Assembly: GCF_003149745.1 (NCBI RefSeq)
Contig: NZ_QGEG01000001.1
Span: 248,001 to 312,000 of the forward strand
Length of the DNA stretch: 64,000 nt
Reading direction: 5' to 3'
Source of the DNA: Flagellimonas aquimarina
GTDB taxonomy: Bacteria; Bacteroidota; Bacteroidia; Flavobacteriales; Flavobacteriaceae
A model generated the notes under the pieces. It was not told the DNA's origin. It worked only from the letters and a program-made list of their open reading frames with translations, and ran no database searches. The first letter of the stretch is position 1. Every line of letters starts with the position of its first letter. The position numbers and the translations under genes were made by a program. Below are positions 11,510-60,391 of the stretch, piece by piece.

Positions 11510-11557
11510 AGTTAGGTGTTATAATATATAAATAATACACAGGCAATTTTTGTTGCT

Positions 11558-12022: not shown

Positions 12023-12033
12023 AATTATAAAAA

Positions 12034-14133: not shown

Positions 14134-16179
14134 TTAATTAAAAACCAGTTCATCCAAGAAAATAAAACTATTACCTCCTGGAGCAATATGCCAATCTGGA
14201 TTTTTTAGTGGGCTTTCAACAAAAAGTTTTACTTTTTTTAATGAAATAGGATCAAAACTAATGTTGTAAGCCATCCGCTCAATATCAATTGAAGGTGTTG
14301 GTTTTGGTAATTTTATAGTCTTTATTTTTTTGAAACTATTCCCATCGGCTGAACCCCAAACGGTATAACCTACGGGAAAGAAAATCCAACTAGTGGGTAT
14401 GGAAAGGCTCCCGACCGAGATGTTGGATATTGTGGTCTGTTCTTTAAATTCAACTGTTGCCGTCATATGTTGACTTTCATAGCCCACCCAATTTCCATCA
14501 ACAAAGTTAGTTGTCCCCCGTTTAAGGTCCATAAGGGTTTCCCCCCCTTTAGCCGTGTATTTTGGATGAGGTGATTGAGCCAAAGTGATATTGTTGATCT
14601 CCACTTGGTTTTTTAGAAAATGTGCAGTACTTGTTAAACTAGGTTCCCAATTGTCCAATGTGGAATATGTCTTTAGGGTAGAGGTTTCTTTAAGATAAAA
14701 TGGCTCGGTATATTCTTTGGCTATAGTATCATTTTTTGAATTTTCAGTGATATAAAACACCTTGGCACCTTCAAAATATTGTTCTATAGATATTTTTACA
14801 GAATCCTTAAAAATTTCTTGGTCTGCAATAATGGTTGGTGGAGATAAGGTGCTAGACGCAAAAACACTATCCGCGACTCGACTTTGCACCATAATTGTTT
14901 CATTCTCTTTTTGAAATTCAGAAAGCCCATCTTTGGTCATTTTGGTTTGCCACACGTACAGATTTTTTAAATTAGGTAGCGTTGCTAAAGAGTTAAGGGC
15001 AGAATCGTCCAACTCAGAACCATAAAGGTTTAACGATTCTAAAAATTCTAAGTTGCTGATTATCTGAACAGTAGCATTGGTTATCCCTGTATTCTGCAAC
15101 TGGAGCTTTGTAAGATGTTTAAACTGTTTTAGCCGTTTTGCCAATTCATCGGTTAAATTGGTATATCCTAAGTTTATTTCGACAATATTGTCTTTATAAG
15201 GCTTAAGCAAATCAAAGTCCTCATCGCTAAGGTTCTTTCGTTTCAAAAAATTAACGAACAATAACGGCATCTCTTCTGAAGCTAACTGGGCAGAAATATT
15301 ACTTTGTGACAAACCTGCAATGAACTCTAAAGGCACATCATCCACTTTTTCCGCAATTAGTGCTTTGAGAGAGTTGTCTTTTTCCAATGAAGCCAAAATT
15401 GCATCCAACTTTTCATCTGTAGGCAGATTCTTTACCACACAATCAAAACAATTCTCATTTTTCATCCACCAATTCATTAAAAGTACTTCTTCAGAGGTAA
15501 GCTGCACTTTTCCCTTTGGTGGCATATGTTCTTTATCTGCCATAGGAAGATAAAGACGATGCATAAGCAACGAAGTCTTCTCCTTCTCCAGTGAATCTAG
15601 AAGTGAGCCTGAATCTCCACCAGCCAATAACTCTTTTTGTGATGTAAGCAATAACCCGCCTTTGGCCTTCCCACTATTGTGGCAACTAACACATTTTTGC
15701 TGAAGAATAGGTTGAATGACATCTGAGAATACCACTGCTTGTGCTATATCCTCAATTACAGGTTCTTCGTAAGCTTCTTTGAACAAAAAATCTTCGCCAT
15801 GAGTAAGACTTCCTCCGAAATGGCCTGTTAAGGTCAACAAAATCAACACCAACACAAATACTGGGAAGTACGTTTTTTGAGCCAACCCATTGGCTGATTT
15901 CTTTAAGAAAAATAATATCAAAGCTCCCACAGAAAAAGCTACAGCAATCCACCTGTGCCTAAAAAGCAGCTCTTCATCATACCCTCCATTTTCTCCTAAA
16001 AACCAACCAGATGCAACTGAAAAGATAGCACTAAAAGCACCTATTGCCAGAGCAAAAAGGATAGTTCCGTTATCTTTTGGGGCCGGTTTTTTATAATAAT
16101 AGAGCTCCATTAAAAATGCTAAAACCAAAATCCCTATGGGCAAATGGACAAATAAAGGATGTAAATTTCCTAACTGCAT
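14134..16179 (-). CDS. DUF2231 membrane cytochrome c with leucine-rich repeats and chitobiase-type C-terminal module
   Basis: 681 residues, a mosaic. Residues 1-130 hold four membrane helices of the DUF2231 type (LHPLFVHLPIGIL near the N-terminus). A periplasmic PSCyt1-like cytochrome follows: heme motif Cys163-x-x-Cys166-His167 in QKCVSCHNSG and a candidate distal Met219 in HMPPKG. Leucine-rich repeats fill about 330-420 (ELAKRLKQFKHLTKLQLQNT), then a chitobiase/beta-hexosaminidase C-terminal type domain (about 440-525) and a discoidin-like domain (about 535-681). The last two are shared with the next gene upstream. It is the last gene of a minus-strand cassette, 13 bp after that gene. Likely a membrane electron-transfer subunit with glycan-binding modules; the reaction is unknown. 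Confidence 0.85.
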   Translation of the reverse strand: MQLGNLHPLFVHLPIGILVLAFLMELYYYKKPAPKDNGTILFALAIGAFSAIFSVASGWFLGENGGYDEELLFRHRWIAVAFSVGALILFFLKKSANGLAQKTYFPVFVLVLILLTLTGHFGGSLTHGEDFLFKEAYEEPVIEDIAQAVVFSDVIQPILQQKCVSCHNSGKAKGGLLLTSQKELLAGGDSGSLLDSLEKEKTSLLMHRLYLPMADKEHMPPKGKVQLTSEEVLLMNWWMKNENCFDCVVKNLPTDEKLDAILASLEKDNSLKALIAEKVDDVPLEFIAGLSQSNISAQLASEEMPLLFVNFLKRKNLSDEDFDLLKPYKDNIVEINLGYTNLTDELAKRLKQFKHLTKLQLQNTGITNATVQIISNLEFLESLNLYGSELDDSALNSLATLPNLKNLYVWQTKMTKDGLSEFQKENETIMVQSRVADSVFASSTLSPPTIIADQEIFKDSVKISIEQYFEGAKVFYITENSKNDTIAKEYTEPFYLKETSTLKTYSTLDNWEPSLTSTAHFLKNQVEINNITLAQSPHPKYTAKGGETLMDLKRGTTNFVDGNWVGYESQHMTATVEFKEQTTISNISVGSLSIPTSWIFFPVGYTVWGSADGNSFKKIKTIKLPKPTPSIDIERMAYNISFDPISLKKVKLFVESPLKNPDWHIAPGGNSFIFLDELVFN

Positions 16180-16192
16180 TATTAACTTTTAT

Positions 16193-17047
16193 TTATTCAA
16201 CAATAATTTCATCTACAAAAACCCAAGGCAATGTTCCTTTACCTGGATGCCAACCAGGGATTTCTTTTAAAGAAGAAATGGTTATGGTCAATTCGCTATA
16301 TTTTTCTTTTTGAACTGGAACCTCAATAAAATCCATTGTCTTGCTTTTTGCTTCATCACCACTGTTCAATTCTATAGCCCCTATATTCCCCTTTTTAGAT
16401 TTTACACTTATTGAAGCAGGTAAAAAAATCCATGACCCTTGATCTTGTAAAACACTCATGATTAACTTTTCCACCAAAATAGGTTCAGAAAATTTAAGGT
16501 CAACAACAATTTCGTTTTCTTGAAAACCCAACCATTTTGCACCATTTCTAAAGTTAACGGTTCCCTTAAGGCCATCTATCAAGGTGTTTTCTCCACTTCC
16601 TTTATAATTTTCATTGGGTCCTGGGTTAATATTTATTGCAGCGTTGGAAATATCCTTGCTCATTTTACGTATAACCATCGCTAGCTCTTCGCTAGGCTTA
16701 AAATCCTTGTGAAAAGCCCTTACTTTTAAGTGAGTCGTAGTTGTAATTTTTAAAGGTGCCCCATAACTACTGGCATTTTCTGTAACATTGCTTCCGTCCG
16801 TTGTATATCGGAGAATTGCATTATCATAAGCCAAATCTACCTTTACCAATGCCGAATTTCTAAAAAGTGATGAATCTATGTGAACTATGGGAAGTGACAA
16901 TTGAATGGCTGATTCATTTAAAAAAATAGGTTTCTTTGATTGGCACGAAAGAGTGGTTAAACTGAAAAAGAAAATCAAAGCCGTTCCTTTCGCAATCTTG
17001 CCAAAAGTGCCAATTGCTGTATTTAACTTAAGACCTAAAACCGTCAT
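16193..17047 (-). CDS. Lipoprotein with chitobiase-type and discoidin-like domains
   Basis: 284 residues from the ATG at 17047, which overlaps the upstream stop codon (ATGA); an in-frame start at 17089 would lie inside the upstream gene. The hydrophobic N-terminal segment ends in the lipobox SLTTLSC. Residues about 50-130 form a chitobiase C-terminal-type domain (ILRYTTDGSNVTENASSYGA, LKVRAFHKDFKPSEE), and 150-284 a galactose-binding-like domain (NTLIDGLKGTVNFRNGAKWL, VFVDEIIVE at the end). Both domains are homologous to the tail of the cytochrome gene at 14134-16179. In other Bacteroidetes this pair trails GH20 hexosaminidases; here no catalytic domain is present, so a glycan-binding or scaffold role is likely. 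Confidence 0.82.
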   Translation of the reverse strand: MTVLGLKLNTAIGTFGKIAKGTALIFFFSLTTLSCQSKKPIFLNESAIQLSLPIVHIDSSLFRNSALVKVDLAYDNAILRYTTDGSNVTENASSYGAPLKITTTTHLKVRAFHKDFKPSEELAMVIRKMSKDISNAAININPGPNENYKGSGENTLIDGLKGTVNFRNGAKWLGFQENEIVVDLKFSEPILVEKLIMSVLQDQGSWIFLPASISVKSKKGNIGAIELNSGDEAKSKTMDFIEVPVQKEKYSELTITISSLKEIPGWHPGKGTLPWVFVDEIIVE

Positions 17048-18081
17048 ACCCGATATAATTTTATGGGATATGTGGCCGAAGAATTCCACTGGGCAACATA
17101 AATATTCTCATCTTCATCTATACACACATCATGAGGGTGCGTAAAAATCTTTAAAGTTTGATGCATCGGATTCAGATTGTCATTTTCATATTCTGGAATA
17201 CTTCCACCCGGAGCAGAAATCAATTTGTTGTTTTCATCTAATATTGAAATAAAACCTGTGCCCTCAGACCCATCTCCAGACCATATAGTAGCCAAGTAAA
17301 TGTGATTGTTATGTATCACCGGCCTGCATATGTATGCTCCTGGCAAATCAATGGAGTTAAGATAGGTTCCATCCAACGAAAAACGTTTTAGCCTATTTTG
17401 TTGGCGAGCGGTTATCAACAAAGTTGGATTCTTTGGGTCACGATCATCAATACAAATACCATGAGCATTATTGAATAGGTGATCTTCATCACCTCTACCC
17501 CCAAATATGTTTTTTATGTTTCCTTTGGAATCGTAGTGCGTTATAAATTGAGAACCATACCCGTCTGCAACATAGATATCCCCATTTTCTGCAATAGCGG
17601 TTTCTGTGGGTATGTACTCCTCTTTGTTTTGATATTTCCCACTTTCTTTTGGAAATGGAAGAACTTGAATCACTTTTCCATCCAAAGTCGTTTTAATCAC
17701 CTCGTGCCTATCATTATCAGAGATGTACAAAAATTCGGTTCCATTTTCATCATGTATGGTTAACCCATGTGCACCAGGATATTCTTTTCCCCAAGTATCT
17801 AACAATTTTCCAGACTTATCATAGATAAGAACATTGTTTTTGGTGTGATTGGTCAACAGGATAATTCTTCCTTTAGCATCTTGCACCATTTCATGACAGT
17901 CCTTCACTGGAAAGTTCTTGCTATTAAGTTTTCCCCAGTTTAAGTCTATCTTATACTGATGACTTCCATGACCGATAACAACGTCTTTTTGCATACGCTC
18001 AGAAAATGATAAACTACCTATGGATGCCAAGCTCAAAGAGGCCAACCCTCCTTTTTCGATGAACCGTCTCCTATTCATCAT
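17044..18081 (-). CDS. Tat-exported NHL/six-bladed beta-propeller protein
   Basis: 345 residues. A twin-arginine signal opens the protein (MMNRRRFIEKGGLASLSLAS). The remainder is an NHL-type propeller with repeats such as VKDCHEMVQDAKGRIILLTN, GAHGLTIHDENGTEFLYISD, NGDIYVADGYGSQF and HPHDVCIDEDENIYVAQW. The closest known architecture is the peptidyl-glycine alpha-amidating lyase/NHL group, but lyase activity cannot be claimed. Start and stop overlap both neighbours by 4 bp (ATGA), so the three genes are translationally coupled with the DUF1501 gene upstream and the lipoprotein downstream. Tat export implies it folds, perhaps with a cofactor or metal, before crossing the membrane. Confidence 0.86.
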   Translation of the reverse strand: MMNRRRFIEKGGLASLSLASIGSLSFSERMQKDVVIGHGSHQYKIDLNWGKLNSKNFPVKDCHEMVQDAKGRIILLTNHTKNNVLIYDKSGKLLDTWGKEYPGAHGLTIHDENGTEFLYISDNDRHEVIKTTLDGKVIQVLPFPKESGKYQNKEEYIPTETAIAENGDIYVADGYGSQFITHYDSKGNIKNIFGGRGDEDHLFNNAHGICIDDRDPKNPTLLITARQQNRLKRFSLDGTYLNSIDLPGAYICRPVIHNNHIYLATIWSGDGSEGTGFISILDENNKLISAPGGSIPEYENDNLNPMHQTLKIFTHPHDVCIDEDENIYVAQWNSSATYPIKLYRV

Positions 18082-19568
18082 GCCAATATATCTTTTACCA
18101 AATGTCCTTCTACATCTGTAAGCCTAAATCTTCTGCCCTGATATTTATAAGTGAGTCTTTCATGATCAATACCCAATAAATGAAGCAGTGTTGCCTGAAA
18201 ATCATGAACATGCACAGGATTGTCAACTATGTTATAACCAAACTCATCTGTTTCACCATAAACAAAACCTGGCTTAATACCTCCTCCAGCCATCCACATA
18301 GTAAAACACCTTGGGTGATGGTCTCTTCCATAGTTAGTATCGGTCAATAAACCTTGAGAGTAATTAGTTCTACCAAATTCACCTCCCCATACAACCAATG
18401 TATCTTCTAACATCCCTCTTTGCTTAAGGTCAGCAACTAGAGCAGCCGAAGCTTGATCTACGTCCTTTGCCTGTTTTTCAATTGCGGAAGGCAAATTATC
18501 ATGCTGATCCCAGCCCATATGGTACAATTGGATAAAACGAACATCTTGCTCCGCCAACCTTCTAGCCAGCAAACAATTAGCAGCATAAGTGCCCGGTATT
18601 TTAGCATCAGCCCCATACATTTTATAAATGTAATCCGGTTCGTTCTCTGTGTTCATTACCTCCGGAACAGAAGTTTGCATTCTATAGGCCATTTCATATT
18701 GGGCTATTCTGCTTTGAATCTCCTCGTCGCCAAATTCCTTATACTGTTTTTCATTAAGTACGGCTAGATTATCGAGTATGGAACGCTTGGTTTCTTTAGA
18801 TATACCTTTAGGGTCATTTAAATAAAGAACAGGGTCCTTTGCTGCCCTAAATTGTACCCCTTGATGCAATGAATGAAGAAAACCATTGCCCCATAATCTA
18901 GTGTACAAAGGTTGACCGTTTGGTCTTCCTGTTCCCCGCGACAATAACACTGTAAAAGAAGGTAAGTTTTCATTTTCGCTTCCCAGTCCATAACTTAACC
19001 AAGAGCCAATACTAGGCCTGCCTGGTTGCTGTGATCCTGTTTGAAAAAAAGTGACAGCTGGATCATGGTTTATTGCTTCGGTATACATTGATTTTACAAT
19101 ACATAGCTCATCTACCATTTTAGCCGTATAGGGCAGTAGGTCACTGATCCATGTTCCGTTTTTACCATGTTGTTGAAAACCAAAATTTGAACCTACCAAA
19201 GGAAACTTGTCCTGTCCTGAGGTCATGCCAGTCAAACGTTGTCCGTTACGAATAGATTCTGGCAAATCCTCGCCCCTCCTCTGGTTAAGCAACGGTTTAT
19301 AATCAAAAAGTTCTAATTGTGAAGGACCTCCACTTTGAAATAGATAAATGACGCGTTTTATTTTTGCGGGATGATGAGGGGAGTTAAGAATACCTTTTAT
19401 CCCCATTGGATTATCCGCTTTAGTAATTAAACTGCCTTCTTTTTGATAAAAATTACAGCCAAGAAGAGAACCCAATGCCATTCCACCAACTCCCAACGCA
19501 GACTTTCCTAAGAAAGACCTCCTGTTCATATTGATTGCGTTGTCCGCTATTATTTTCTTTTCACTCAT
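18078..19568 (-). CDS. Tat-exported DUF1501 protein
   Basis: 496 residues. The N-terminus has a twin-arginine signal (MNRRSFLGKSALGVGGMALG) ending in a cysteine (SLLGC), so it may be a Tat lipoprotein. The body is DUF1501, of the alkaline-phosphatase/sulfatase superfamily: KRVIYLFQSGGPSQLELFDY, IGSWLSYGLGSEN, MGWDQHDN, VVWGGEFGRTNYSQG and RDHHPRCFTMWMAGGG are the conserved blocks that carry the superfamily's likely metal ligands (D, H, E, H). The typical sulfatase C-x-P-S-R is absent. DUF1501 genes normally accompany DUF1549/DUF1553 cytochromes, as here (1 bp from that gene). The reaction is unknown. Confidence 0.9.
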   Translation of the reverse strand: MSEKKIIADNAINMNRRSFLGKSALGVGGMALGSLLGCNFYQKEGSLITKADNPMGIKGILNSPHHPAKIKRVIYLFQSGGPSQLELFDYKPLLNQRRGEDLPESIRNGQRLTGMTSGQDKFPLVGSNFGFQQHGKNGTWISDLLPYTAKMVDELCIVKSMYTEAINHDPAVTFFQTGSQQPGRPSIGSWLSYGLGSENENLPSFTVLLSRGTGRPNGQPLYTRLWGNGFLHSLHQGVQFRAAKDPVLYLNDPKGISKETKRSILDNLAVLNEKQYKEFGDEEIQSRIAQYEMAYRMQTSVPEVMNTENEPDYIYKMYGADAKIPGTYAANCLLARRLAEQDVRFIQLYHMGWDQHDNLPSAIEKQAKDVDQASAALVADLKQRGMLEDTLVVWGGEFGRTNYSQGLLTDTNYGRDHHPRCFTMWMAGGGIKPGFVYGETDEFGYNIVDNPVHVHDFQATLLHLLGIDHERLTYKYQGRRFRLTDVEGHLVKDILA

Positions 19569-19569
19569 A

Positions 19570-21927
19570 TTACCCTCTTGAAATGGTTTCGTCTAAGTTT
19601 AGTATTGTATGTGCCGTTAAGGCCAATGCCGTTAAATGGTCTGAAGAAACTTCCATATCTGTAGAAAACTCCCCAATTGACAGATATTCGTCAGTAACCA
19701 CTTCCCCTGCCTTTATCTTTTCAAACGTATCTAAATAAAGGTTATGTAAGATTTTCAATTCTTCCTCATTTGGTTTTCTAGAAGTAGCATTTTGAAAAAC
19801 ATAGCCTATTTGGTTCAATGGTTCTTTACCGCTTGCATCTATGGCTTTGTATGCCAAGGCCCTTGCCGCTTCTATTAACTGTGGGTCATTTAAAAGCACA
19901 AGTGCCTGCAATGGCGTGTTAGTCTCTTGGCGCTTTACGGTACAAAGATCTCTTGAGGAAGCATCAAAAGTCATCATAGTCGGCGGCGGTACCGTTCTCT
20001 TCCAAAAGGTGTATAAACTTTTTCTGTACAGATCTTCACCTTCACTTTGAACGTAAGTTGAGGTACTTCCACCTCCCCCACCTGTAGTTTCTTCCCATAT
20101 ACCTTCTGGCTGGTACGGTTTTACACTTGGACCACCAACCTCCTCATTCAATAATCCACTTATTTTCAAGGCTTGATCCCTAATCATTTCCGCACTCAAC
20201 CTTAACCTGGAAGCTCTTGCCAAATAGGTGTTTTCTGGGTCTAATTCTTGCATTTCTTCTGTTATATGACTACTCTGTTGATAGGTGGAAGAGAGCACCA
20301 TATATTTCATGATTTGCTTAACATCCCATCCTTCTTTCATAAACTTGACCGCCAGGAAATCAAGCAATTCTGGATGCGAAGGCAATGCTCCCTGGTTTCC
20401 AAAATCATAAGAGCTTTCCACCAAACCTTTTCCAAACATTCTCTGCCAGATTCGGTTGACCGCAACACGCGCAGTCAATGGGTTTTTTTCATGAAACAAC
20501 CATTTGGATAAGCCCAATCTGTTTTTTGGAAAGTTATCTGGGAATGGTAAAATAGCCTCAGGCGTTGCAGGAAAGACTTGTTCTGAAGGTTGGTCATAAA
20601 CCCCCCTATTCAAAACAAATGTTTCTCTCTGTACCGGCATATCCCTCATAACCATTACCTCTACCTTTTGCTCAGGGTTTTTGGTCATGTTCACAAAGTT
20701 CAACACCCCTTCTTTATCTTCTTTTGAAACTATTATATATGGTTTCGGTATTTCTTGGGCATTTGCCATAAGCCCTTTCTCATCTATATTATTGAAAAAA
20801 CCGAAAAGCTGGAAATGTTCCTTTTGGCTTAAAGGGTCATATTTATGGTCATGACAGCGGGCGCATTCCATGGTCATTCCTAAAAAAGCAGTACTAAATG
20901 TATTTGTCCTATCCTCTACGTATTCTATGCGGTATTCCTCAGGAATCACCCCTCCTTCTGCAGTTATCTTGTGGTTTCTGTTAAATCCTGTGGCCAAAAT
21001 GGATTCTTTGGTTGCATTGGAAAGCATGTCTCCCGCCAATTGGTAGGTGACAAATTCATTATAAGGCATATTTTTTTCAAAGGCATGAATGACCCAATCC
21101 CGCCAAGGCCACATGGTGCGCTCAAAATCATCTTGATAGCCATGTGTGTCCGCATATCTTGCAACGTCCATCCAGTCTGCAGCCATGTACTCGGCATAAG
21201 CCGTGGTATTGAGCAAAGAATCAACAATTTTTTCGTAAGCATTTTTAGAGGTGTCTTTTATGAAGGCGTTGACTTGATCCACACTTGGAGGCAGTCCTGC
21301 GATACTAAAAAATGCGCGACGGACAAGTTGTTCTTTAGCAGCTTTTTTTGAAGGCGAAAACCCTTGGAGGTTTAATTTTTCTTGAATAAACTTATCTATC
21401 TCGTTTTGGCTCCATTCATCATTTTCAATTATCGGCACTGCTGGGCTAACTGGCGGTACAAATGCCCAATGCTTCTTGTACACAGCGCCTTGCTCCACCC
21501 ATTTTTTAAGCAGTTCCTTTTCATAATCGGACAATATGAGGTTGGATTCCGGTGGGGGCATTTTAAGCGTAGGGTCATCTTCAAAAATTCGTTTTATCAA
21601 CTCACTTTTTTCCAAATCACCGGGGATAATTGCATATCTATCTTTGTTCTCACCAATTGCGGCATATGCATCTTCAGGTTTGTTCAAAGAAAGTCCACCT
21701 TCAACTGCATTTTTATCTGGTCCATGACAGACGAAACACCTATCAGAAAGAATTGGTTTTATATGAAATGAGAAGTCAATACTATCTGGGATTTGACTTA
21801 TGGACTGTTCTAGAGATATAATTGCATACTCTCCTTTTTTACTCTGACAGCTTATCACTAAAAAAGACAGAATAACAAAATGTACCGGTAGAAACCTCTT
21901 CTTTATCAACGTCCTGATGACAGGCAT
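19570..21927 (-). CDS. Planctomycete-type cytochrome: PSCyt1 + DUF1549 (PSCyt2) + DUF1553 (PSD1)
   Basis: 785 residues. A lipobox (LVISCQSK, Cys27) anchors it. PSCyt1 carries the heme motif Cys64-x-x-Cys67-His68 in DRCFVCHGPD with a candidate methionine ligand in LKMPPP. DUF1549 follows (about 165-370) and holds a second C-x-x-C-H in MECARCHDHKYDPL, a conserved feature of this family. DUF1553 occupies the C-terminal part (about 475-745: NPLTARVAVNRIWQRMFG, LRLSAEMIRDQALKISG, ALVLLNDPQLIEAARALA). It leads the cassette, one base before the DUF1501 gene. The combination is abundant in Planctomycetes and Verrucomicrobia, and some marine Bacteroidetes have it; the enzyme function remains unestablished. 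Confidence 0.93.
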   Translation of the reverse strand: MPVIRTLIKKRFLPVHFVILSFLVISCQSKKGEYAIISLEQSISQIPDSIDFSFHIKPILSDRCFVCHGPDKNAVEGGLSLNKPEDAYAAIGENKDRYAIIPGDLEKSELIKRIFEDDPTLKMPPPESNLILSDYEKELLKKWVEQGAVYKKHWAFVPPVSPAVPIIENDEWSQNEIDKFIQEKLNLQGFSPSKKAAKEQLVRRAFFSIAGLPPSVDQVNAFIKDTSKNAYEKIVDSLLNTTAYAEYMAADWMDVARYADTHGYQDDFERTMWPWRDWVIHAFEKNMPYNEFVTYQLAGDMLSNATKESILATGFNRNHKITAEGGVIPEEYRIEYVEDRTNTFSTAFLGMTMECARCHDHKYDPLSQKEHFQLFGFFNNIDEKGLMANAQEIPKPYIIVSKEDKEGVLNFVNMTKNPEQKVEVMVMRDMPVQRETFVLNRGVYDQPSEQVFPATPEAILPFPDNFPKNRLGLSKWLFHEKNPLTARVAVNRIWQRMFGKGLVESSYDFGNQGALPSHPELLDFLAVKFMKEGWDVKQIMKYMVLSSTYQQSSHITEEMQELDPENTYLARASRLRLSAEMIRDQALKISGLLNEEVGGPSVKPYQPEGIWEETTGGGGGSTSTYVQSEGEDLYRKSLYTFWKRTVPPPTMMTFDASSRDLCTVKRQETNTPLQALVLLNDPQLIEAARALAYKAIDASGKEPLNQIGYVFQNATSRKPNEEELKILHNLYLDTFEKIKAGEVVTDEYLSIGEFSTDMEVSSDHLTALALTAHTILNLDETISRG

Positions 21928-22105
21928 ACAATTGGATTTTTGATTGTTGCTTTGAAGCTAATTAGATAACTGGAATTGCACTCAAAAATTTCGACCAATG
22001 GCAGACCAGAAAAGACTAATGAATTTGTTTATGCAAATTCAACTAGAGTTGACAGTACAATTGAGAAACGAGTCTGTTTGAATACAGTAAAAGGGGGAAT
22101 CTCCA

Positions 22106-22846
22106 TTACTCTGGCGAATTCCTACCCCATGTTATTGAATCGTTTAAAATTCGGCCTTTAGCATCATTTAGGTAGCTCCTGCCTATGGTATACCTAATTC
22201 CGTCAACTTCTAAACTATTGCCCTCTATTGCCTCAACCTTATCTATAGCAATAGTGTAGGATCTGTGAATCCGCAGAAATTTATCGGAGGGCAATTCATC
22301 CGTAAAACTGCCCAGGGTTTTGTGAATTATATACTTTGCTGAGGTAGTTTTGATTCGAATGTAATCCTTCAGGCTTTCAACTACTACAATTTCATCCAGA
22401 AAAATTTTTTGTAGTTTTTTTTTGTCCACTTTGACAAAAATACTTGGCTTTTCGTGCGCTGAATGGGTCCCGCTATTGGATGCTCCTTGTTTTAAGCTTA
22501 TAATTCGATTTACTGTTTTTAGAAATCTTGGAAAAGGAATAGGTTTTACGAGATAATCAATAACTTCAAGTTCAAAACTCTTTAATGCATATTCTTCATG
22601 CGCAGTAGTGATCACTATCATTGGAGAAACATGCAGCGATTCTAAAAAATTGAGCCCGTCCAAAATGGGCATATTGATATCCAGAAAAATGATATCAACT
22701 TCATTTTCCTGAAGAAATGATGTGGCGTCGATAGCATTTGAAAAAGTACGGACAAGATTTAATTGTTTTATCTGTTCGGCATAGTTCTTCAATACATTTA
22801 TGGCCAATGGCTCATCATCAATAATAATAACTCGTAAAGCTGTCAT
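22106..22846 (-). CDS. LytTR-family response regulator
   Basis: 246 residues. Receiver domain with Asp10/Asp11 and phosphoacceptor Asp56 (VDIIFLDINMPILDG), DYLVKPIPFPRFLK at its end, then a linker and a LytTR DNA-binding domain (about 140-240; LRIHRSYTIAIDKVEAIEGN, IGRSYLNDAKG). Its ATG overlaps the stop of the kinase gene (ATGA), so the two form one unit. It lies 178 bp upstream of the cytochrome cassette on the same strand and is divergent from the GH92/symporter operon. It is the only local DNA-binding regulator for either, since the glycan locus has no HTCS, SARP or anti-sigma gene of its own in the window. Confidence 0.92.
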   Translation of the reverse strand: MTALRVIIIDDEPLAINVLKNYAEQIKQLNLVRTFSNAIDATSFLQENEVDIIFLDINMPILDGLNFLESLHVSPMIVITTAHEEYALKSFELEVIDYLVKPIPFPRFLKTVNRIISLKQGASNSGTHSAHEKPSIFVKVDKKKLQKIFLDEIVVVESLKDYIRIKTTSAKYIIHKTLGSFTDELPSDKFLRIHRSYTIAIDKVEAIEGNSLEVDGIRYTIGRSYLNDAKGRILNDSITWGRNSPE

Positions 22847-23934
22847 ACTTTTAGTTTTAAATCTACATGAAACATATTTTCTTTCTCAAAAATATCAAGG
22901 TCATAATCTTTTGAATCATACCCCAGTTCCAAACGTTTTTTTACATTGGAAAGTCCTATGCCGCCACTTCTGGTCGCCACTTTGCTTTCTCTGTCACTAA
23001 CAGGAATGGTGTTGGACACATTAAAATACAAAAAATCGTCGGCAACACTTATATCTATCGTAATATGCATATCGCCAATGTTTTTGCTCGCTCCATGTTT
23101 AAAGCAGTTTTCAATTAATGGAACAAGCAACATTGGAGCTATCATCTTATTCTCTAAATCACCTGAAATCCCAATATCTATTTGTAATGAATCATTAAAT
23201 CGTATTCGCTCTAAATCTATATAGTTTTGAATACAATCTATCTCGCTTTTAAGGTCTTGCTTTCTTTTTCTTGTGGCATATAGTAAGTATCGCATTAGTC
23301 CAGATAGCTTTAGAATTACCTCGGGCGCCTTATCAGATTTTTCAAGAGTGAGTGAATAAATATTGTTTAATGTATTAAAGAAAAAGTGTGGAGAAACTTG
23401 CGACCTTAAAAACTTGAGTTCTGTTGTCAATTGTCTTTTTTCAAGGTCATGAAGCTTACTGTTTTCCCGCAACCAATCTACGGTTATCTTAATAGCAGTG
23501 GCAAAAGACACCACATAGAGTTCTCCCAACATTGTTTGTATTGCATAGTTTAGGGTCAGCCCTTCTCCTGCCAGTTCGGCTGGTCCCTCTGGCCATACAT
23601 TAGTACTCACTAAATAGTAGGTAAGGTTATATTTTACCAACAACATAACAAACAATGAAAGCAACACAATTGTGGTATATGTGATGTATTTTCTTTTATA
23701 AACATATTTGGGCATCAAAAAATAAATATTGAAGTAAGAAAGGGCAATATGAATTGGAAAACCTATCAAGTTGGTTTTGATGGAGTATTCAAAATCGTCA
23801 TGCATGCTACCCCAACGCAATGTATTCAGTGCAAAATAAATTGCCCAAAAAATAATATGGTGCATATAGGTAATGCGATACTGTTGCGAAGATTCAGCTT
23901 TTAAAAGCTCATCCAATTTATCATTTATGTACAT
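22843..23934 (-). CDS. LytS-type sensor histidine kinase
   Basis: 363 residues. Four hydrophobic segments in residues 25-155, then a coiled coil and the His_kinase domain: His183 in RSQVSPHFFFNTLNNIYSL, N-box in MLLVPLIENCFKHGAS, G-box in GGIGLSNVKKRLEL. The fold matches the other kinase at 5764-6828. No periplasmic sensor domain is visible, so a signal may be sensed in the membrane, as in other kinases of this group. It is translationally coupled to the LytTR regulator and starts at a promoter region shared with the first GH92 gene. Confidence 0.92.
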   Translation of the reverse strand: MYINDKLDELLKAESSQQYRITYMHHIIFWAIYFALNTLRWGSMHDDFEYSIKTNLIGFPIHIALSYFNIYFLMPKYVYKRKYITYTTIVLLSLFVMLLVKYNLTYYLVSTNVWPEGPAELAGEGLTLNYAIQTMLGELYVVSFATAIKITVDWLRENSKLHDLEKRQLTTELKFLRSQVSPHFFFNTLNNIYSLTLEKSDKAPEVILKLSGLMRYLLYATRKRKQDLKSEIDCIQNYIDLERIRFNDSLQIDIGISGDLENKMIAPMLLVPLIENCFKHGASKNIGDMHITIDISVADDFLYFNVSNTIPVSDRESKVATRSGGIGLSNVKKRLELGYDSKDYDLDIFEKENMFHVDLKLKV

Positions 23935-24163: not shown

Positions 24164-26407
24164 ATGAGCAAATCTTCTTTTCTTTTCTTTTTGATAGTGT
24201 TCTTCATTGGCTCATCTTGTAAAGAAAAAAAACTAAATAGCACTTCTGATCATTTTACCGGGTATGTAGATCCTTTTATTGGCACAGGTGGTCACGGACA
24301 CACTTTTCCTGGCGCAACTGCTCCTTTTGGAATGGTGCAGCCAAGTCCGGATAATGGCACCACAGGCTGGGATTGGTGCTCTGGTTACCATATAACAGAT
24401 TCCATTATTTCTGGCTTTGGACAATTGCATCTTAGCGGCACTGGAATAGGGGATTTGGCCGATCTATTGTTAATGCCAACAAACAAAACGACCAATGTAT
24501 CTATGTTTGGCATTGCAAGGGATAGTTTGCCCTATACTGCCCGTTTTTCCCATTCTAGCGAAACTGCTTCCCCTGGTTATTACAAAGTTGACCTGGAAAA
24601 TGATATACGAGTTGAACTTACCGCCAACGAATATGTGTCTTTACATAAGTATACGTATCAAAAAAGTGATGTGCCTTCTTTTATTATTGACTTAGGCTAT
24701 GCGGTAAATTGGGATGCGCCTACCGAAAGCTACATTGCATTGGAAAGTGAAACCCAGATTGCGGGATACAGACACAGCGCGGGTTGGGCAAAAAACCAAA
24801 AAGTATTCTTTGTATTGGAAACCTCAGAACCAATCATAAACGCTCATTTTATGTCCAATGGTGAAACTTTGGGCAGCAGGAAAAAAGCAAAAGGAACAAA
24901 AACGGGAGCACAACTCTTTTTTAACAAAGATTCAACCTCAACGGTCGAAATCAAAGTGGCGGTATCTTCCGTAAGCATTGCAAACGCCAAAGAAAATCTT
25001 AGAAATTATGGTACTTCCGTTTCGTTTGACGAAGTAAAAAGCCAAACAAACAAAAAATGGGAAGAGCTATTGTCCAAAATTAAGATAGAGACACCTCAAG
25101 ATTCTCTAAAGACCATTTTTTATACTGCATTATATCATACGCAGGTAGCTCCGGTGCTCTTCAGTGATATTAATGGCGAGTTCCGATTGCAAAACGACAG
25201 TATCAGTACTGCCCAAGATTGGAATGCATATTCAACCCTCTCTCTGTGGGACACCTTTAGGGCCGAAAATCCTTTATTAAATATTTTACAGCCTGAAAAA
25301 GCAAACGATATTGTGCGGTCTATGCTTGCCTATTATGATGAACAAGGTAGATTGCCCGTATGGACCTTATATGGCAACGAAACCAATACCATGACCGGAA
25401 ACCATGGGGTATCAGTTGTTGTGGATACCTATTTAAAAGGAATTCGAGATTATGATGTTGATAAAGCATACGAGGCTGTTCGCAATACCATGATGGGAGA
25501 TATTAGAGGACTGGCACCCTATAAAGAATACGGATATATTCCTTATACAGAATTGGATGAGTCAGTTACGATAAGCCTTGAATTTGCCTATAATGATTGG
25601 TGTGTTGCACAAATGGCCAAGGATTTAGGCAAAGAGGAGGATTATCAATATTTCAGCAATCGTTCTAAGGCATTTAGACATCTTTTTGATACCGAAACTG
25701 GATTTATGAGAGGTAAGTCCGTAGATGGAAAAAGTTGGAACGAGCCATTTGACCCCAAGTTTTCAAGTCATAGGGAGCATACTGATTATACAGAGGGCAA
25801 TGCTTGGCAACACAGTTGGTTTGTTTTGCATGATGTTCCAAGTTTTATAGAGTTGCATGGAGGAAACAAGGCTTTTACAAAAAAGTTGGAACAACTTTTC
25901 ACTGAAAGTTCAGAGATTTCTGGAGAAAACGTTTCTGCAGATATTTCGGGTCTAATTGGGCAGTATGCACATGGTAACGAACCAAGCCATCATATTGCCT
26001 ACATGTTCAATAGTGCAAAAGAACCATGGAAGACTCAATACTGGGTAAGACAAATATTAGATACCCAATACACTACGCAGCCTGAAGGCTTGAGTGGAAA
26101 CGAAGATTGTGGGCAAATGTCTGCGTGGTATGTTTTTAGTTCATTGGGCCTCTACCCTATGAACCCGGCATCAGGTCAATATGAACTTGGAAGCCCCCTT
26201 TTTAAGAAAGCGACCATAACAATATCAGAAACAAAGGATTTTATCATTTCAGCTGAGAGTACCTCATCAGTCAATAAGTACATTCAAGCAGTTAAACTAA
26301 ATGGAGAATCATTGCAACGCACCTACATAACACACACGGAATTAATGGCAGGTGGCACATTAGAATTTGAAATGGGTCCTGATCCCAATAAAAATTGGGG
26401 TATTTAA
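24164..26407 (+). CDS. GH92 alpha-mannosidase, lipoprotein (paralogue 1)
   Basis: 747 residues. Lipoprotein signal with lipobox FFIGSSC (Cys19). The GH92 N-terminal beta-sandwich starts at YVDPFIGTGGHGHTFPGAT; the catalytic (alpha/alpha)6 domain contains SLWDTFRAENPL, EGNAWQHSWFVLHD, AHGNEPSHHIAYMFN and, near residue 645, GNEDCGQMSAWYVF. All the motifs normally seen in calcium-dependent exo-alpha-mannosidases of GH92 are present. It should remove terminal mannose from oligosaccharides at the membrane surface or in the periplasm. It opens the operon and its 3' end lies 19 bp before the symporter gene. The HGNEPSHH loop is the same as in paralogue 2 but different from 3 and 4. Confidence 0.93.
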   Translation: MSKSSFLFFLIVFFIGSSCKEKKLNSTSDHFTGYVDPFIGTGGHGHTFPGATAPFGMVQPSPDNGTTGWDWCSGYHITDSIISGFGQLHLSGTGIGDLADLLLMPTNKTTNVSMFGIARDSLPYTARFSHSSETASPGYYKVDLENDIRVELTANEYVSLHKYTYQKSDVPSFIIDLGYAVNWDAPTESYIALESETQIAGYRHSAGWAKNQKVFFVLETSEPIINAHFMSNGETLGSRKKAKGTKTGAQLFFNKDSTSTVEIKVAVSSVSIANAKENLRNYGTSVSFDEVKSQTNKKWEELLSKIKIETPQDSLKTIFYTALYHTQVAPVLFSDINGEFRLQNDSISTAQDWNAYSTLSLWDTFRAENPLLNILQPEKANDIVRSMLAYYDEQGRLPVWTLYGNETNTMTGNHGVSVVVDTYLKGIRDYDVDKAYEAVRNTMMGDIRGLAPYKEYGYIPYTELDESVTISLEFAYNDWCVAQMAKDLGKEEDYQYFSNRSKAFRHLFDTETGFMRGKSVDGKSWNEPFDPKFSSHREHTDYTEGNAWQHSWFVLHDVPSFIELHGGNKAFTKKLEQLFTESSEISGENVSADISGLIGQYAHGNEPSHHIAYMFNSAKEPWKTQYWVRQILDTQYTTQPEGLSGNEDCGQMSAWYVFSSLGLYPMNPASGQYELGSPLFKKATITISETKDFIISAESTSSVNKYIQAVKLNGESLQRTYITHTELMAGGTLEFEMGPDPNKNWGI

Positions 26408-26426
26408 ATATGACCAGTACAATTAT

Positions 26427-28304
26427 ATGGATGTAATAGACATTTCGATCATAGTAGTCTATGTGTTACTGACGCTCTTTATTGGAATATGGGTTTCCAA
26501 AAAAGCTTCCAATGGGTTAGAATCCTATTTTCTAGGAGGAAATAATATTAAATGGTACTATTTAGGCCTAAGCAACGGATCCGGCATGTTCGATGTATCT
26601 GGAACCGCATGGATGGTTGGTATATTATTTCTATATGGCGCCAAAAGCTTTATGTTTATGTGGCTTTGGCCCGTTTGGAATCAGGTCTTTCTTATGATGT
26701 TTTTGGCCGTTTGGATAAGGCGTTCCAACATCATGACCGGTTCTGAGTGGATTTTAACACGATTTGGAGATGGTAGATCGGGAAGGGCATCGCACAGTAT
26801 TGTGGCCATATTTGCTGTTGTTTCTGCCGTAGGATTCATAGCATACTTCTTTGAAGGTACAGGTAAGTTTTTGACCATTATCTTACCTTGGGACATTCCT
26901 TTGGAAATAGGAAATGTTCTTTTATTGACCTCAGAACAGTCCTATGCACTTATAATTATTTTCCTAACTACTATCTATACTGTTAAAGGAGGCATGTTCT
27001 CTGTTGTAGCTACTGAAGTTTTACAATATATCATCATGGTTATAGCCGGCATACTGGTAGCAGGCTATACTTTTTTTGCCATTAGCGATGTAGAAATTAA
27101 CATGGTAATCTCTGATGAATGGCGAACTATTTTCTTTGGCGGTGAGCTGGAAACACATTGGAATACCAAATTTCAGGCTTTTAACGATTTAATAGATACG
27201 GAAGGATATAAAATGTTTGGGGCATTTATTGGAATGTCGCTTTTCAAAGGTTTCTTTGCAAGTATTGCAGGGCCTGTACCCAGTTATGATTTTCAGCGCA
27301 TTCTATCTACAAGAACGGTTAAAGAAGCTGCTTATATGAGTGGTTTTACCAATCTGGTTTTATATATACCCAGATACTTATTGGTTACCGGAATCGTAGT
27401 CATTGCCTTAGTAGTTTTGGCTCCAGAAATGAGCACCAATCCTGGATTGGTTGGGGGCGATTTGGAGGTTATCCTGCCAAAAGTCATCAACCACCATATT
27501 CCAGTTGGGGTTAAAGGGTTGTTATTGGCAGGCCTTTTAGCCGCTTTTATGTCTACGTTTTCAGCTTTTGTAAATTCGAGTCCAGCTTATATAGTTAACG
27601 ATATCTATAAAAAATACTTTAAGCCAAAAGCGTCCAATAAGCATTACATAAAGGCCAGTCATATTGCTTCATTTTTTGTAGTTGGGTTGGGCGTATGTAT
27701 GGGCTTTTTTGCAGATTCCATCAACTCACTTACGTTATGGATAAGCAGTGCCTTATATGGCGGATATGTAGCATCCAACTTTTTAAAATGGGTGTGGTGG
27801 CGCTTTAACGGCTGGGGATACTTTTGGGGAATGGTTGCAGGGTTGCTAATAGCAAGTCTTCAGTTCATTTTAGATCAGAATAAGGCCAATTTTTTAGAAG
27901 GCACTTTTTTGTATGACCTATCGCACATTCATGCCATCTATCTTTTCCCATTGATTTTTGGATTTTCATTGTTAGGGTCCTTTTTAGGAACTTACCTGTC
28001 AAAACCTACAGCTGCAGAAGTCCTAAAATCTTTTTACAAAGATGTAAAACCTTGGGGTTGGTGGAAACCCATTCAAATGCAGCTAAAAAATGAAGACCCT
28101 TCTTTTGAGAAGAACAATGATTTTTGGTTAGACATGACGAATTGTGCCATTGGCATTGTTTGGCAATCCAGCATGATCTTACTGCCCATATATTTTATAA
28201 TTAGAGACTATCCAAAAGCCATTTTAACACTAGTGGTGTTTTTAACAACTTCTTTAATTTTAAAATACACTTGGCTGGATAAGTTGAAAAAAATACCTAA
28301 CTAA
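26427..28304 (+). CDS. Sodium:solute symporter family transporter
   Basis: 625 residues from the ATG at 26427 (MDVIDISIIVVYVLLTLFIG); an open extension upstream overlaps GH92 and codes nothing family-like. About 13-15 hydrophobic segments. Family features include SNGSGMFDVSGTAWMVGILF near TM2 and FKGFFASIAGPVPSYDFQRI in the middle. It is longer than classical SGLT-type symporters, with a C-terminal extension of two or three helices. Position between a GH92 and a GH130 gene suggests it brings a trimmed manno-oligosaccharide, or mannosyl-GlcNAc, into the cytoplasm together with sodium. The substrate is inferred from context only. Confidence 0.9.
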   Translation: MDVIDISIIVVYVLLTLFIGIWVSKKASNGLESYFLGGNNIKWYYLGLSNGSGMFDVSGTAWMVGILFLYGAKSFMFMWLWPVWNQVFLMMFLAVWIRRSNIMTGSEWILTRFGDGRSGRASHSIVAIFAVVSAVGFIAYFFEGTGKFLTIILPWDIPLEIGNVLLLTSEQSYALIIIFLTTIYTVKGGMFSVVATEVLQYIIMVIAGILVAGYTFFAISDVEINMVISDEWRTIFFGGELETHWNTKFQAFNDLIDTEGYKMFGAFIGMSLFKGFFASIAGPVPSYDFQRILSTRTVKEAAYMSGFTNLVLYIPRYLLVTGIVVIALVVLAPEMSTNPGLVGGDLEVILPKVINHHIPVGVKGLLLAGLLAAFMSTFSAFVNSSPAYIVNDIYKKYFKPKASNKHYIKASHIASFFVVGLGVCMGFFADSINSLTLWISSALYGGYVASNFLKWVWWRFNGWGYFWGMVAGLLIASLQFILDQNKANFLEGTFLYDLSHIHAIYLFPLIFGFSLLGSFLGTYLSKPTAAEVLKSFYKDVKPWGWWKPIQMQLKNEDPSFEKNNDFWLDMTNCAIGIVWQSSMILLPIYFIIRDYPKAILTLVVFLTTSLILKYTWLDKLKKIPN

Positions 28305-28344
28305 GCTTAGTTTTTAAACTAATTAAAATCAGATTATAAAGAAA

Positions 28345-29310
28345 ATGAACGCGATTCCGTGGCAAGAAAGACCGGCAGACAATACTGATATAATTTGGAG
28401 ATACGACCAAAATCCGATTATAAAAAGAGATGCCATACCATCATCCAACAGTATTTTCAATAGCGCTGTTGTTCCTTTTGAAGACGGCTTTGCCGGAGTA
28501 TTTAGATGTGATAACAAAGCGGTGCAAATGAATATTTTTGCTGGTTTTAGCAAAGATGGCATCAACTGGGACATTGATCATGAGCCCATAGCATTTGAAG
28601 CAGGGAACACACAGATGATTGCATCAGATTATAAATACGACCCCCGTGTTACATTTATAGAGGACCGATACTGGATTACCTGGTGCAACGGCTACCATGG
28701 TCCAACAATCGGCATTGGTTATACTTTTGATTTCAAAGAATTTTTTCAATGTGAAAATGCATTCTTGCCATTCAATAGAAATGGTGTGCTCTTTCCAGAA
28801 AAGATAGATGGCAAATATGCCATGCTCAGTAGACCGAGTGATAACGGACATACCCCTTTTGGAGATATTTATCTTAGCTACAGCCCTGATATGAAATATT
28901 GGGGAGAACACAGATGTGTCATGAAAGCTGCCCCATTTACAGATAGCGCATGGCAATGCACAAAAATTGGGGCAGGTTCGGTTCCAATTTTGGTAGATGA
29001 AGGTTGGTTAATGTTCTACCACGGTGTCATAAACACCTGCAATGGCTTTAGATACTCCATGGGCTCAGTTATTTTAGATCAACACGACCCTAGCAAAGTA
29101 AAACACAGGACGCAACCTTATTTACTCTCACCACAAACCCCATATGAATGTATGGGCGATGTACCAAACGTAGTGTTCCCTTGCGCAACATTACATTCTA
29201 TTGCAGAAGATAAGGTTACAATTTATTATGGTGCAGCAGATACAGTTACCGCAATGGCCTTTGGACACATATCCGAAGTCATACAATTCACAATAAAGAA
29301 CAGTTTATGA
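28345..29310 (+). CDS. GH130 glycoside phosphorylase, likely beta-1,4-mannosyl-GlcNAc type
   Basis: 321 residues, no signal peptide, so cytoplasmic. GH130 five-bladed propeller motifs are clear: [20 protein letters not shown] with [18 protein letters not shown] (Asp99 fits the family's catalytic aspartate), [18 protein letters not shown], and [19 protein letters not shown]. The N-terminus [20 protein letters not shown] matches my memory of the GH130 subgroup that includes the Bacteroides N-glycan enzyme acting on Man-beta-1,4-GlcNAc. Expected reaction: phosphorolysis to alpha-mannose 1-phosphate plus GlcNAc. It sits 40 bp after the symporter gene and 1 bp before the CBM9-like gene. Confidence 0.9.
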
Positions 29311-29311
29311 A

Positions 29312-30403: not shown

Positions 30404-30418
30404 GAAATGTGAGAGCAA

Positions 30419-32671: not shown

Positions 32672-32672
32672 T

Positions 32673-37252: not shown

Positions 37253-37548
37253 AATAATGTCGTTCAGCTCTTTTTAAAGACAAACACAGTTGGTTTTGTA
37301 AGAAAAATCTAGGTCTTTGTAAAAAATCATTTTACTGGAAAAGACCATTTTTAAAGGTCTAACGAGTTGAAAAGCATACGTTTTATATAAATTGCCCACC
37401 TCAATCGTTTTCGCTTCCATGTTCTTTAGCTTTTCAGGTTTGTTATTAGTCGAATTTTTTTTCTATATAAATAAGGAATTTGAACATTTATAAAGTGAAC
37501 ATTAAGCTTATGTTAAGCTTTAGAAACTAATAACCAAACTCAAACAGT
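37253..37548 (+). promoter_or_regulatory. Leader/promoter region before SusC with direct and inverted repeats
   Basis: A 296-bp gap with no gene. Close to SusC, TTAAGCTT occurs twice with an 11-bp period (37502-37509, 37513-37520), also readable as the inverted repeat AAGCTTA-tgt-TAAGCTT (37504-37520). Farther upstream GGTCTTT pairs with AAAGACC before ATTTTT (around 37310-37352), a possible weak terminator for the GH92 operon, and AGACC (37342-37346) can pair with GGTCT (37356-37360) instead. It therefore looks like both an operon boundary and the SusC promoter. Confidence 0.4.
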
Positions 37549-40701: not shown

Positions 40702-40712
40702 AAAAAATAATT

Positions 40713-42203: not shown

Positions 42204-42281
42204 CATAATAATCTTTTTATCATTAGTTAATTTTAATTCAGTAAGTTTTTTAATTTAATTTTAAGTAGAGTTAGTAGTTTG

Positions 42282-42312
42282 AATAAAGGAGAGGCAACTC
42301 TCCTTTATTTTT
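42282..42312 (+). terminator. Strong intrinsic terminator after SusD
   Basis: A perfect 12-bp stem, AATAAAGGAGAG (42282-42293) with CTCTCCTTTATT (42298-42309), capped by a GCAA tetraloop and followed by TTT-G-TTT. It separates SusCD from the next gene and would reduce read-through into it. Confidence 0.85.
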
Positions 42313-42344
42313 GTTTCAGTATTTTGTAAAGTAATTGCATTGAA

Positions 42345-45692: not shown

Positions 45693-45704
45693 ACCAACCC
45701 ATTT

Positions 45705-47147: not shown

Positions 47148-47149
47148 GC

Positions 47150-59432: not shown

Positions 59433-59433
59433 C

Positions 59434-60354: not shown

Positions 60355-60391
60355 TTGTTGTATTTTTTTGACTTTTCTAATACCCATTTTA

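Follow-up and report, generated by a model that had tools for sequence, protein, structure and literature searches.

A conserved cassette of exported cytochromes, a DUF1501 protein and a PAL-like propeller: a candidate redox module of glycan catabolism in Bacteroidota

The DNA considered here, a window of 64,000 nucleotides of the 3.6 Mb genome of Flagellimonas aquimarina (C1:248001-312000), contains one tight minus-strand run of five genes (from 21927 to 14134). In the order of transcription, these genes code for a PSD1 protein, a DUF1501 protein, an NHL propeller that resembles the peptide-amidating lyase PAL, a lipoprotein, and a membrane cytochrome that combines DUF2231, PSCyt1, leucine-rich repeats (LRR) and a tail of the hexosaminidase type. 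We argue that this cassette may serve glycan catabolism as an exported redox module, the tailed form of which would belong to a locus digesting the high-mannose N-glycans of glycoproteins; the probability of this reading is, in our judgment, about 0.5. In the use of glycoprotein sugars, it is probably responsible for an additional oxidative step of a kind not yet characterised. Its genes are the following:

19570..21927, minus strand: PSD1, an exported lipoprotein with PSCyt1, DUF1549 and DUF1553 (Pfam, over cut-off)
18078..19568, minus strand: DUF1501 protein, exported by the twin-arginine translocation (Tat) route (Pfam, 530 bits; TAT_signal model)
17044..18081, minus strand: NHL/PAL-like propeller, proposed zinc lyase (profile match to 3fvz; hhalign against PAL)
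16193..17047, minus strand: lipoprotein with Fn3_assoc/CHB_HEX_C and a discoidin-like tail (Pfam; the discoidin part is our own reading)
14134..16179, minus strand: protein with DUF2231, PSCyt1, LRR and a GH20-type tail (Pfam; family-profile match to 6q63)

All five genes lie where a preliminary description of this DNA had placed them, with positions and strand found again and the Pfam domains matched. The successive spacings are a 1-bp gap, two 4-bp overlaps and a 13-bp gap, in agreement with the 4-bp overlaps and 1-13 bp gaps described before, given that the lipoprotein starts at ATG 17047. This is its likely start; the upstream GTG at 17089 is open as well and, if used, would bring the overlap of propeller and lipoprotein to 46 bp.

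The proposed oxidoreductase of the set is PSD1, which is predicted to bind c-type heme. Its domains PF07635, PF07583 and PF07587 score 59, 276 and 346 bits, over the curated cut-offs, and its lipobox reads ..FLVISC. There are two CxxCH heme motifs, at residues 64-68 and 355-359; both of them, as well as M123, are invariant in 48/48 aligned relatives, and M123 fits the methionine that would serve as axial ligand of the first heme. The "two exported C-x-x-C-H cytochromes" of the preliminary description are indeed two proteins, but the heme motifs are three in total, two of them in PSD1. The AlphaFold model of PSD1 (pLDDT 82) yielded no fold match in the PDB with Foldseek (best E 1.6, noise), so that PSD1 has no solved relative at the sensitivity of this search. 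A single PSD1 gene was found in the host genome and none in the one genome of the same genus that was sampled.

The partner that gives PSD1 a possible chemical context is the propeller. It had been described as a Tat-exported NHL propeller; the gene is present as claimed, but the label is too weak, since the catalytic residues of PAL are kept, and by its sequence the protein is a relative of PAL and, we propose, a zinc lyase. Searches by phmmer with propeller fragments brought up PAL weakly (E 0.00097, alignment not shown) or did not list it, and therefore the residues of the propeller were compared with those of PAL directly. A profile of 37 cassette propellers matches the PAL structure 3fvz at E 1.1e-8, with generic NHL proteins scoring better, and hhalign of the propeller profile against PAL gives a probability of 95.4 and E 1.8e-8. 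In the hhalign alignment, H105, H207, H317, Y175, R226 and D318 of the propeller correspond to H585, H690, H786, Y654, R706 and D787 of PAL in 37/37 sequences, H105, H207 and H317 occupying the positions of the zinc histidines. All six residues are present in 78/78 propeller frames of at least 300 aa, namely that of the window and 77 in the loci described below, eight of which come from loci with untailed cytochromes. PAL is described in PMC6529398 as a zinc-dependent enzyme that cleaves the C-alpha to N bond of hydroxylated glycine, and PMC10303134 gives Tyr651/Arg703 in human numbering (654/706 in the rat, by offset) as its catalytic dyad. Distant rhizobial relatives of the propeller carry the PAL family annotation in public records; on a Mesorhizobium plasmid (L158, 3980-4900), an annotated PAL family protein lies by genes of ectoine uptake and utilisation, which might point to small amides or amidines as its substrates.

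The propeller, PSD1 and DUF1501 are inherited together. Of 249 genomes of the host's family, 60 have the PAL-like propeller (E <= 1e-40), and each of these is also among the 67 with PSD1 (Fisher p 3e-50, relatedness of the genomes uncorrected). DUF1501 at E <= 1e-70 occurs in exactly the same 67 genomes as PSD1, although this threshold was chosen after the listing had been inspected, and at E <= 0.001 DUF1501 is found in 156/249. GH92 (glycoside hydrolase family 92), present in 130/249 genomes and used as a control, shows no association with the propeller (p 0.3) or with PSD1 (p 0.16). Among 149 genomes of the class, seven have the propeller, seven have PSD1 and six have both (p 3.5e-9); in G249, G342 and G374, the two genes are on different contigs, and their adjacency is not seen. 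The class-level genome that has the propeller without PSD1 (G357) has a copy with an in-frame stop.

A strict rule that the PAL-like gene always needs PSD1 was considered and abandoned: it has no exception in the 249 family genomes but fails in G357 and, over the parts viewed, in plasmids of Moraxella and Persicobacter, the PAL-like relatives of which (46% and 40% identity, respectively) hold the same six residues as the cassette propellers. On these plasmids (Moraxella osloensis, L152, 5405-9963; Persicobacter, L155, 3549-10948), there is a glycyl-radical enzyme, annotated as belonging to the pyruvate formate lyase family, together with its activase, and the L155 propeller has no evident signal peptide. 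The glycyl-radical enzyme may be a second kind of C-H-activating partner for the PAL-like type of lyase.

The DUF1501 protein, the constant companion of PSD1, has a Tat signal (NRRSFLGK..LLGC, TAT_signal model) and a fold of the alkaline phosphatase/sulfatase superfamily, as judged from a Foldseek match with E 1.4e-5 and probability 1.00 but a TM score of ~0.3 and a low-confidence model (pLDDT 65). Its active site is a non-sulfatase one. The sulfatase signature C-x-P/A-x-R is found in 0/48 DUF1501 proteins and its S-x-P/A-x-R form in 3/48, anywhere in the sequence, and E397-F398 is aligned at the metal-binding Asp-Asn pair of sulfatases; with both the signature and the metal pair missing, membership of DUF1501 in the sulfatases was rejected.

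The last two proteins share their tails. The lipoprotein (lipobox ..LTTLSC) has Pfam matches to CHB_HEX_C_1 and Fn3_assoc, and its tail matches that of the cytochrome at E ~1e-17; the last 215 positions of the cytochrome family profile, in turn, match residues 561-774 of 6q63, a GH20 enzyme of Bacteroides thetaiotaomicron (E 3.3e-40), which is BT0459 according to PMC7426924. The preliminary description was, thus, right both in speaking of a GH20 tail and in regarding the hexosaminidase-type tails as common to the two proteins. The LRR match of the window cytochrome is below the Pfam curated cut-off (22 vs 27 bits), but the profile of its family aligns well with LRR proteins of solved structure. 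The hydrophobic windows of the DUF2231 protein fall within residues 3-126 and merge into four segments, and the c-heme motif of its PSCyt1 domain is formed by C163, C166 and H167, complemented by M219; these four residues and H7, H12, H75 and H120 are invariant in 22/22 sequences. Simple topology would put the c-heme domain and the four histidines on the periplasmic side.

How widely does this set occur? DUF2231-type cytochromes or their tail were found in at least 107 of the 249 family genomes searched. Loci were drawn from two series, the family genomes and a scan of named genomes (best 80 of 565 relatives by similarity to the tailed form), and were annotated by tblastn with the proteins of the window and neighbour proteins. 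With at least 8.5 kb upstream required for counting, 17 of 120 loci were dropped, which left 88 loci with tailed cytochromes (24 from family genomes and 64 from the named scan) and 15 with untailed ones; the cytochrome fragments in L092 and L150 were left out. The complete five-gene order is present in 52/88 tailed loci (18/24 in the family-genome series and 34/64 in the named scan), beyond chance, as befits a tight and widely conserved set, and PSD1-DUF1501 stands in the run upstream of the cytochrome, alone or with the NHL gene or lipoprotein between, in 79/88. The other tailed loci comprise 24 with PSD1, DUF1501 and cytochrome only, 3 that have the propeller without the lipoprotein, and 9 arranged otherwise. 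The lipoprotein occurs in 55/88 tailed loci vs 0/15 untailed ones, and the propeller in 5/15 untailed loci; in 4/15 (L062, L063, L065 and L066), the place of the propeller is taken by a protein of ~300 aa, and the one of these that was scanned (L066) combines a Tat signal with a match, below threshold, to a xylose-isomerase-like TIM barrel (22.1 bits, cut-off 31.1). Of the five-gene set as first described, therefore, the order does recur in Bacteroidota, but the lipoprotein and the propeller are not always present, both being absent from the loci of Arenibacter and Dyadobacter, and the core is PSD1, DUF1501 and the DUF2231 cytochrome.

The 80 named-scan loci belong to Bacteroidota with two exceptions (78/80; Calditrichota 1, unassigned 1), and the closest named relatives of the cytochrome among the matches listed are from Allomuricauda and Flagellimonas. 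A Haliscomenobacter plasmid has the cytochrome, DUF1501 and PSD1 near SusC/D, with no annotated propeller. Some arrangements depart from the common one. In L061, there is a second set of DUF1501, cytochrome and propeller, with a 1122-aa open frame that the PSD1 query does not match in the place of PSD1. In L052 (7113-11587) and L054 (4543-9005), sulfatase and Asparaginase_2 genes immediately precede a tailed DUF2231 cytochrome and SusC/D, and PSD1 is on another contig of these genomes; the DUF2231 cytochrome can, hence, serve another enzyme pair.

The glycan setting is seen in the gene neighbourhood. Of 89 GH92 genes in 26 genomes, 35 lie within 25 kb of a tailed cytochrome, with 1.2 expected, such proximity being seen in 10 of the 19 genomes with GH92; without the host's own genome, the figures are 31/85 GH92 genes and 9 of 25 genomes (three split-GH92 fragments were left out, and G001, G002, G129, G213 and G236, with ~700-aa forms, are outside the test). 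In the fetched loci, GH92 is found in 30/88 tailed ones (22/64 in the named scan, 8/24 in the family-genome series) vs 0/15 untailed ones (p 0.005); by family, the linkage is seen in 17/30 loci of Flavobacteriaceae, 3/7 of Spirosomataceae and 2/4 of Haliscomenobacteraceae. At least one of GH92, GH130, GH20, GH123 and Asparaginase_2 is present in 31/64 named-scan and 9/24 family-genome tailed loci, and no fewer than 9 changes on the tree of the cytochromes are required to account for linkage to GH92, GH130 or Asparaginase_2. The neighbours in such N-glycan loci include GH20 with a tail of the same kind, GH29, GH123, GH3 and Asparaginase_2, and GH18 in L145 (tblastn). The only Asparaginase_2 protein tested, that of L041, is a glycosylasparaginase (E ~3e-125 vs 7e-37 for isoaspartyl peptidases), the enzyme that cleaves the GlcNAc-Asn linkage remaining once an N-glycan has been degraded. 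The window itself is among these N-glycan loci, with SusC/D, 4 GH92 genes and GH130 beside the cassette.

This association is one of gene neighbourhood only and not of genome presence, as follows from the control given above. The preliminary description had linked the cassette to glycans and proposed asking whether its order co-occurs with GH92/GH20 loci; it does so by neighbourhood, in a subgroup, with N-glycan enzymes near many tailed forms, but not in the form of a genome-level association with GH92, and untailed forms occur elsewhere as well. Since untailed members of the family have other settings, N-glycan breakdown is the setting of a subgroup and not the general function; the module seems to serve glycan catabolism in general, and many of its tailed members are found in N-glycan loci. 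In one genome (G162:C34:196266-201610), an untailed DUF2231 cytochrome lies ~3 kb from GH92, an exception to the pattern that ties the tail to N-glycans.

With the gene set, its order, its motifs, its co-inheritance and its neighbourhood as the observed starting point, a scheme can be envisaged in which we infer the heme loading, the electron path, the lyase activity, the substrate, the target bond and the chemical step of PSD1. SusC/D would import pieces of glycan or glycopeptide, the GH92 enzymes would remove mannose, and GH130 would break the Man-GlcNAc link. PSD1, as a diheme periplasmic lipoprotein, might take electrons from, or hydroxylate, a carbon that bears an O- or N-substituent, and the PAL-like zinc propeller might then eliminate the substituent from the resulting carbinol, an "oxidise, then eliminate" sequence as in PAM and, in outline, in lytic polysaccharide monooxygenases (LPMO). 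DUF1501, as the constant partner of PSD1, would perhaps act on the side of sulfate, phosphate or ester. The electrons would leave PSD1 by its low-spin heme (His68/Met123), be taken up by the c-heme of the DUF2231 protein, and reach the respiratory chain through the histidine-rich, four-helix membrane part of the latter, with the hexosaminidase-type tails keeping the module close to the glycan or to GH20 enzymes. Candidates for the target bond are an O-methyl or other ether on mannose, a glycosidic bond, and the acetamido group of HexNAc. For loci that have no propeller, such as those of Arenibacter and Dyadobacter, elimination might be dispensable, spontaneous or supplied elsewhere. More speculatively, and here we would rather doubt than assert, PSD1, the PAL-like propeller, DUF1501 and the membrane cytochrome might together form a new class of machinery for the oxidative processing of glycans. 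It would be a counterpart of PAM and LPMO based on heme: the diheme cytochrome would activate a C-H bond adjacent to a substituent (ether, glycosidic or amide), which a zinc lyase of the PAL type would then expel.

Several observations weigh against the interpretation of the cassette as a redox module of this kind. On the side of the glycan link, none of the five N-glycan marker genes is present in 48/88 tailed loci, and the tie between the tail and N-glycans is looser than the fetched loci suggest: among the matches listed for the same genomes, GH92 lies within 25 kb of 2/21 untailed vs 10/26 tailed cytochromes, a modest difference (p 0.04). The counts, moreover, are not independent, as some organisms are in both series and the genomes are related. 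On Catenovulum plasmids, one untailed cassette adjoins GH115/GH98 and another a fucose permease gene (fucP); given sister cassettes with GH115/GH98, an amide-specific chemistry is not general, and action on the N-acetyl group of GlcNAc was set aside as the general function. On the side of the lyase, Arg533 of PAL falls on a gap in 37/37 propellers, one propeller from a Catenovulum plasmid has Ala at D318, and the elimination step of PAM, according to PMC6529398, also proceeds spontaneously above neutral pH. No local PAL-like gene exists in the loci of Arenibacter and Dyadobacter, so that elimination by a PAL-like protein is not obligatory. The pairing with PSD1 is loosened by G044, G045 and G070, where the PSD1 match is weak (E ~1e-27), and by the PAL-like genes of Moraxella and Persicobacter, whose surroundings, as far as viewed, hold the glycyl-radical enzyme but no annotated PSD1.

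The same observations bear on other explanations. PSD1 might be a plain energy-conserving sugar dehydrogenase that, in the periplasm, oxidises released aldoses (mannose, GlcNAc) to lactones, with the propeller acting as a lactonase of the SMP-30 type and the electrons going to the cytochrome. The layout of cytochrome and membrane part suits such a device, and the propeller does have a weak SGL/SMP-30 match in Pfam (19.2 bits, under the cut-off of 26.3); we consider it unlikely in view of the zinc and dyad residues of PAL in all 78 propellers and of the lack of any known PQQ, FAD or NAD dehydrogenase domain in the Pfam annotation of the five genes. A 3-keto-glycoside route, in which PSD1 would be a C3 dehydrogenase and lyases or hydratases encoded elsewhere would finish the reaction, could draw on the Tat protein with the sub-threshold TIM-barrel match that replaces the propeller in the four untailed loci, and on the five PF06439 matches of the genome. 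The four PF06439 places listed outside the window, however, are remote from the cassette, the nearest among the matches listed being at ~237 kb, and a Pfam scan that covered 30 frames of the window found no PF06439 in them; without such a hydrolase beside the cassette, this route was rejected as the main explanation, and we hold it to be rather improbable.

If DUF1501 were a divergent sulfatase, the cassette could be a device for the removal of sulfate or ester groups to which the cytochromes are accessory. The Foldseek placement of DUF1501 among sulfatases, the sulfatase genes in 15/103 loci (two tblastn queries) and the sulfatases reported near PSCyt genes of Verrucomicrobia in PMC5615132 are all compatible with this possibility; the lost signature, the replacement of Asp-Asn by Glu-Phe, and the fact that three heme motifs and a PAL-like gene would be left unexplained render it quite improbable. 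Least probable of all appears a periplasmic peroxidase or stress device of the MauG/CcP type that merely travels with polysaccharide utilisation loci. Two hemes, one of them with His/Met ligation, are the plan of MauG/CcP enzymes. The PSD1 gene RB10051 of Rhodopirellula baltica is discussed under the common stress response in PMC2754498. Nonetheless, PSD1 has neither a CCP_MauG match in Pfam nor a fold match to a solved protein, on which grounds its membership in the diheme peroxidases was rejected, and the tails and the lipoprotein are shared with hexosaminidases.

The interval first described for the cassette (14134..23934) does hold the five genes but also spans two regulatory genes that had not been counted, and beyond these begins the divergent locus of the N-glycan type:

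22106..22846, minus strand: LytTR response regulator (Pfam)
22843..23934, minus strand: LytS-type histidine kinase (Pfam PF06580)
24164..48091, plus strand: divergent N-glycan-type utilisation locus (Pfam)
starts at 24164, 30419, 32673 and 35015, plus strand: GH92 genes of the divergent locus (Pfam)

The distance from the LytTR regulator to PSD1 is 178 bp in the window and 129-241 bp in the 6 relatives measured, and a histidine kinase gene is present somewhere in 18/64 tailed loci of the named-genome scan. The order in the divergent locus is GH92, an SSF sodium symporter, GH130, a CBM9 protein, three GH92, SusC/SusD, an FG-GAP/UnbV protein, an MFS transporter and a ROK kinase. The FG-GAP/UnbV_ASPIC protein (1115 aa, 42345-45692, plus strand) adjoins SusC/D, and its relatives stand beside SusD in L032, L052 and L054. 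Downstream of the cassette, genes for an M19 dipeptidase-like protein, a RidA-like protein and a GntP permease form a tight run (10445-13347); GntP and M19 are near the cassette in only one annotated locus (L074) and are, therefore, not part of the set. A small DUF1508 (YegP-like) protein is encoded on the opposite strand between the cassette and GntP (13698-14027, plus strand). Towards the end of the window (57483-63970, minus strand), a PorP/SprF gene lies by the genes of a 1192-aa protein that has DUF11 repeats and a type IX secretion signal, and of an OmpA/PD40 protein.

How does the cassette relate to systems already described? The five genes had been considered not to be a described set, and no description of them was found in the open-licence literature searched, judged by title or the start of the abstract. 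With the N-glycan loci of Bacteroides described in PMC9522356 and PMC10154615, the cassette loci share GH92, GH130, GH20, GH29, GH3 and SusC/D (the loci for plant N-glycans in PMC9522356 combine GH29, GH3, GH130 and GH92 with SusC/D), and the GH20 tail is that of BT0459. In contrast, the word cytochrome occurs 0 times in the main texts of these two papers, whereas the cassette locus has an exported redox module built in. Should our interpretation be true, bacteria would use an oxidative route in the breakdown of glycoprotein sugars that hydrolase-only schemes omit.

The likeness to PAM, the PHM-PAL enzyme of animal peptide amidation, is a matter of the zinc histidines and the Tyr/Arg dyad, which the cassette propeller shares with PAL, and of an oxidising partner that is likewise co-inherited with the propeller, as seen in the family genomes sampled. 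Unlike in PAM, this partner would be a diheme cytochrome, there being no copper PHM monooxygenase domain among the Pfam matches of the five cassette genes, and the substrate would probably be a glycan instead of peptidyl-glycine. In LPMO, oxidation of a C-H bond is followed by elimination of the substituent, with one copper site. The likeness of the cassette to LPMO is in outline only, since it would employ heme and a separate zinc lyase, and no sequence relation is seen.

Close relatives are the PSD1-PSCyt genes of Planctomycetes and Verrucomicrobia, which code for the same PSCyt1-DUF1549-DUF1553 type of protein (PMC5615132 and, for R. baltica, PMC2754498). In Planctomycetes, proteins of the PSD1 type are numerous and still lack an explanation: PMC2754498 gives 41 occurrences in R. 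baltica for the PSD1 domain and the same number for PSC2, and PMC5615132, in 2017, reported sulfatases nearby and carbohydrate-binding modules for the PSCyt genes of Verrucomicrobia, with nothing known of their function. DUF1501 is not named in the main text of the latter paper; on a Singulisphaera plasmid, PSD1 adjoins DUF1501 twice. To these genes, the Bacteroidota cassette adds the PAL-like propeller, the tailed lipoprotein and the DUF2231 membrane cytochrome, and many of its copies are tied to N-glycan loci. With one PSD1 copy in the host genome, it is a tractable genetic system that offers a class of substrate for experiments (high-mannose glycoprotein) as well as a concrete chemical hypothesis suggested by the PAL-like partner. 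If the cassette did represent a new class of oxidative machine, Planctomycetes, with their many orphan pairs of PSD1 and DUF1501, would supply its largest family.

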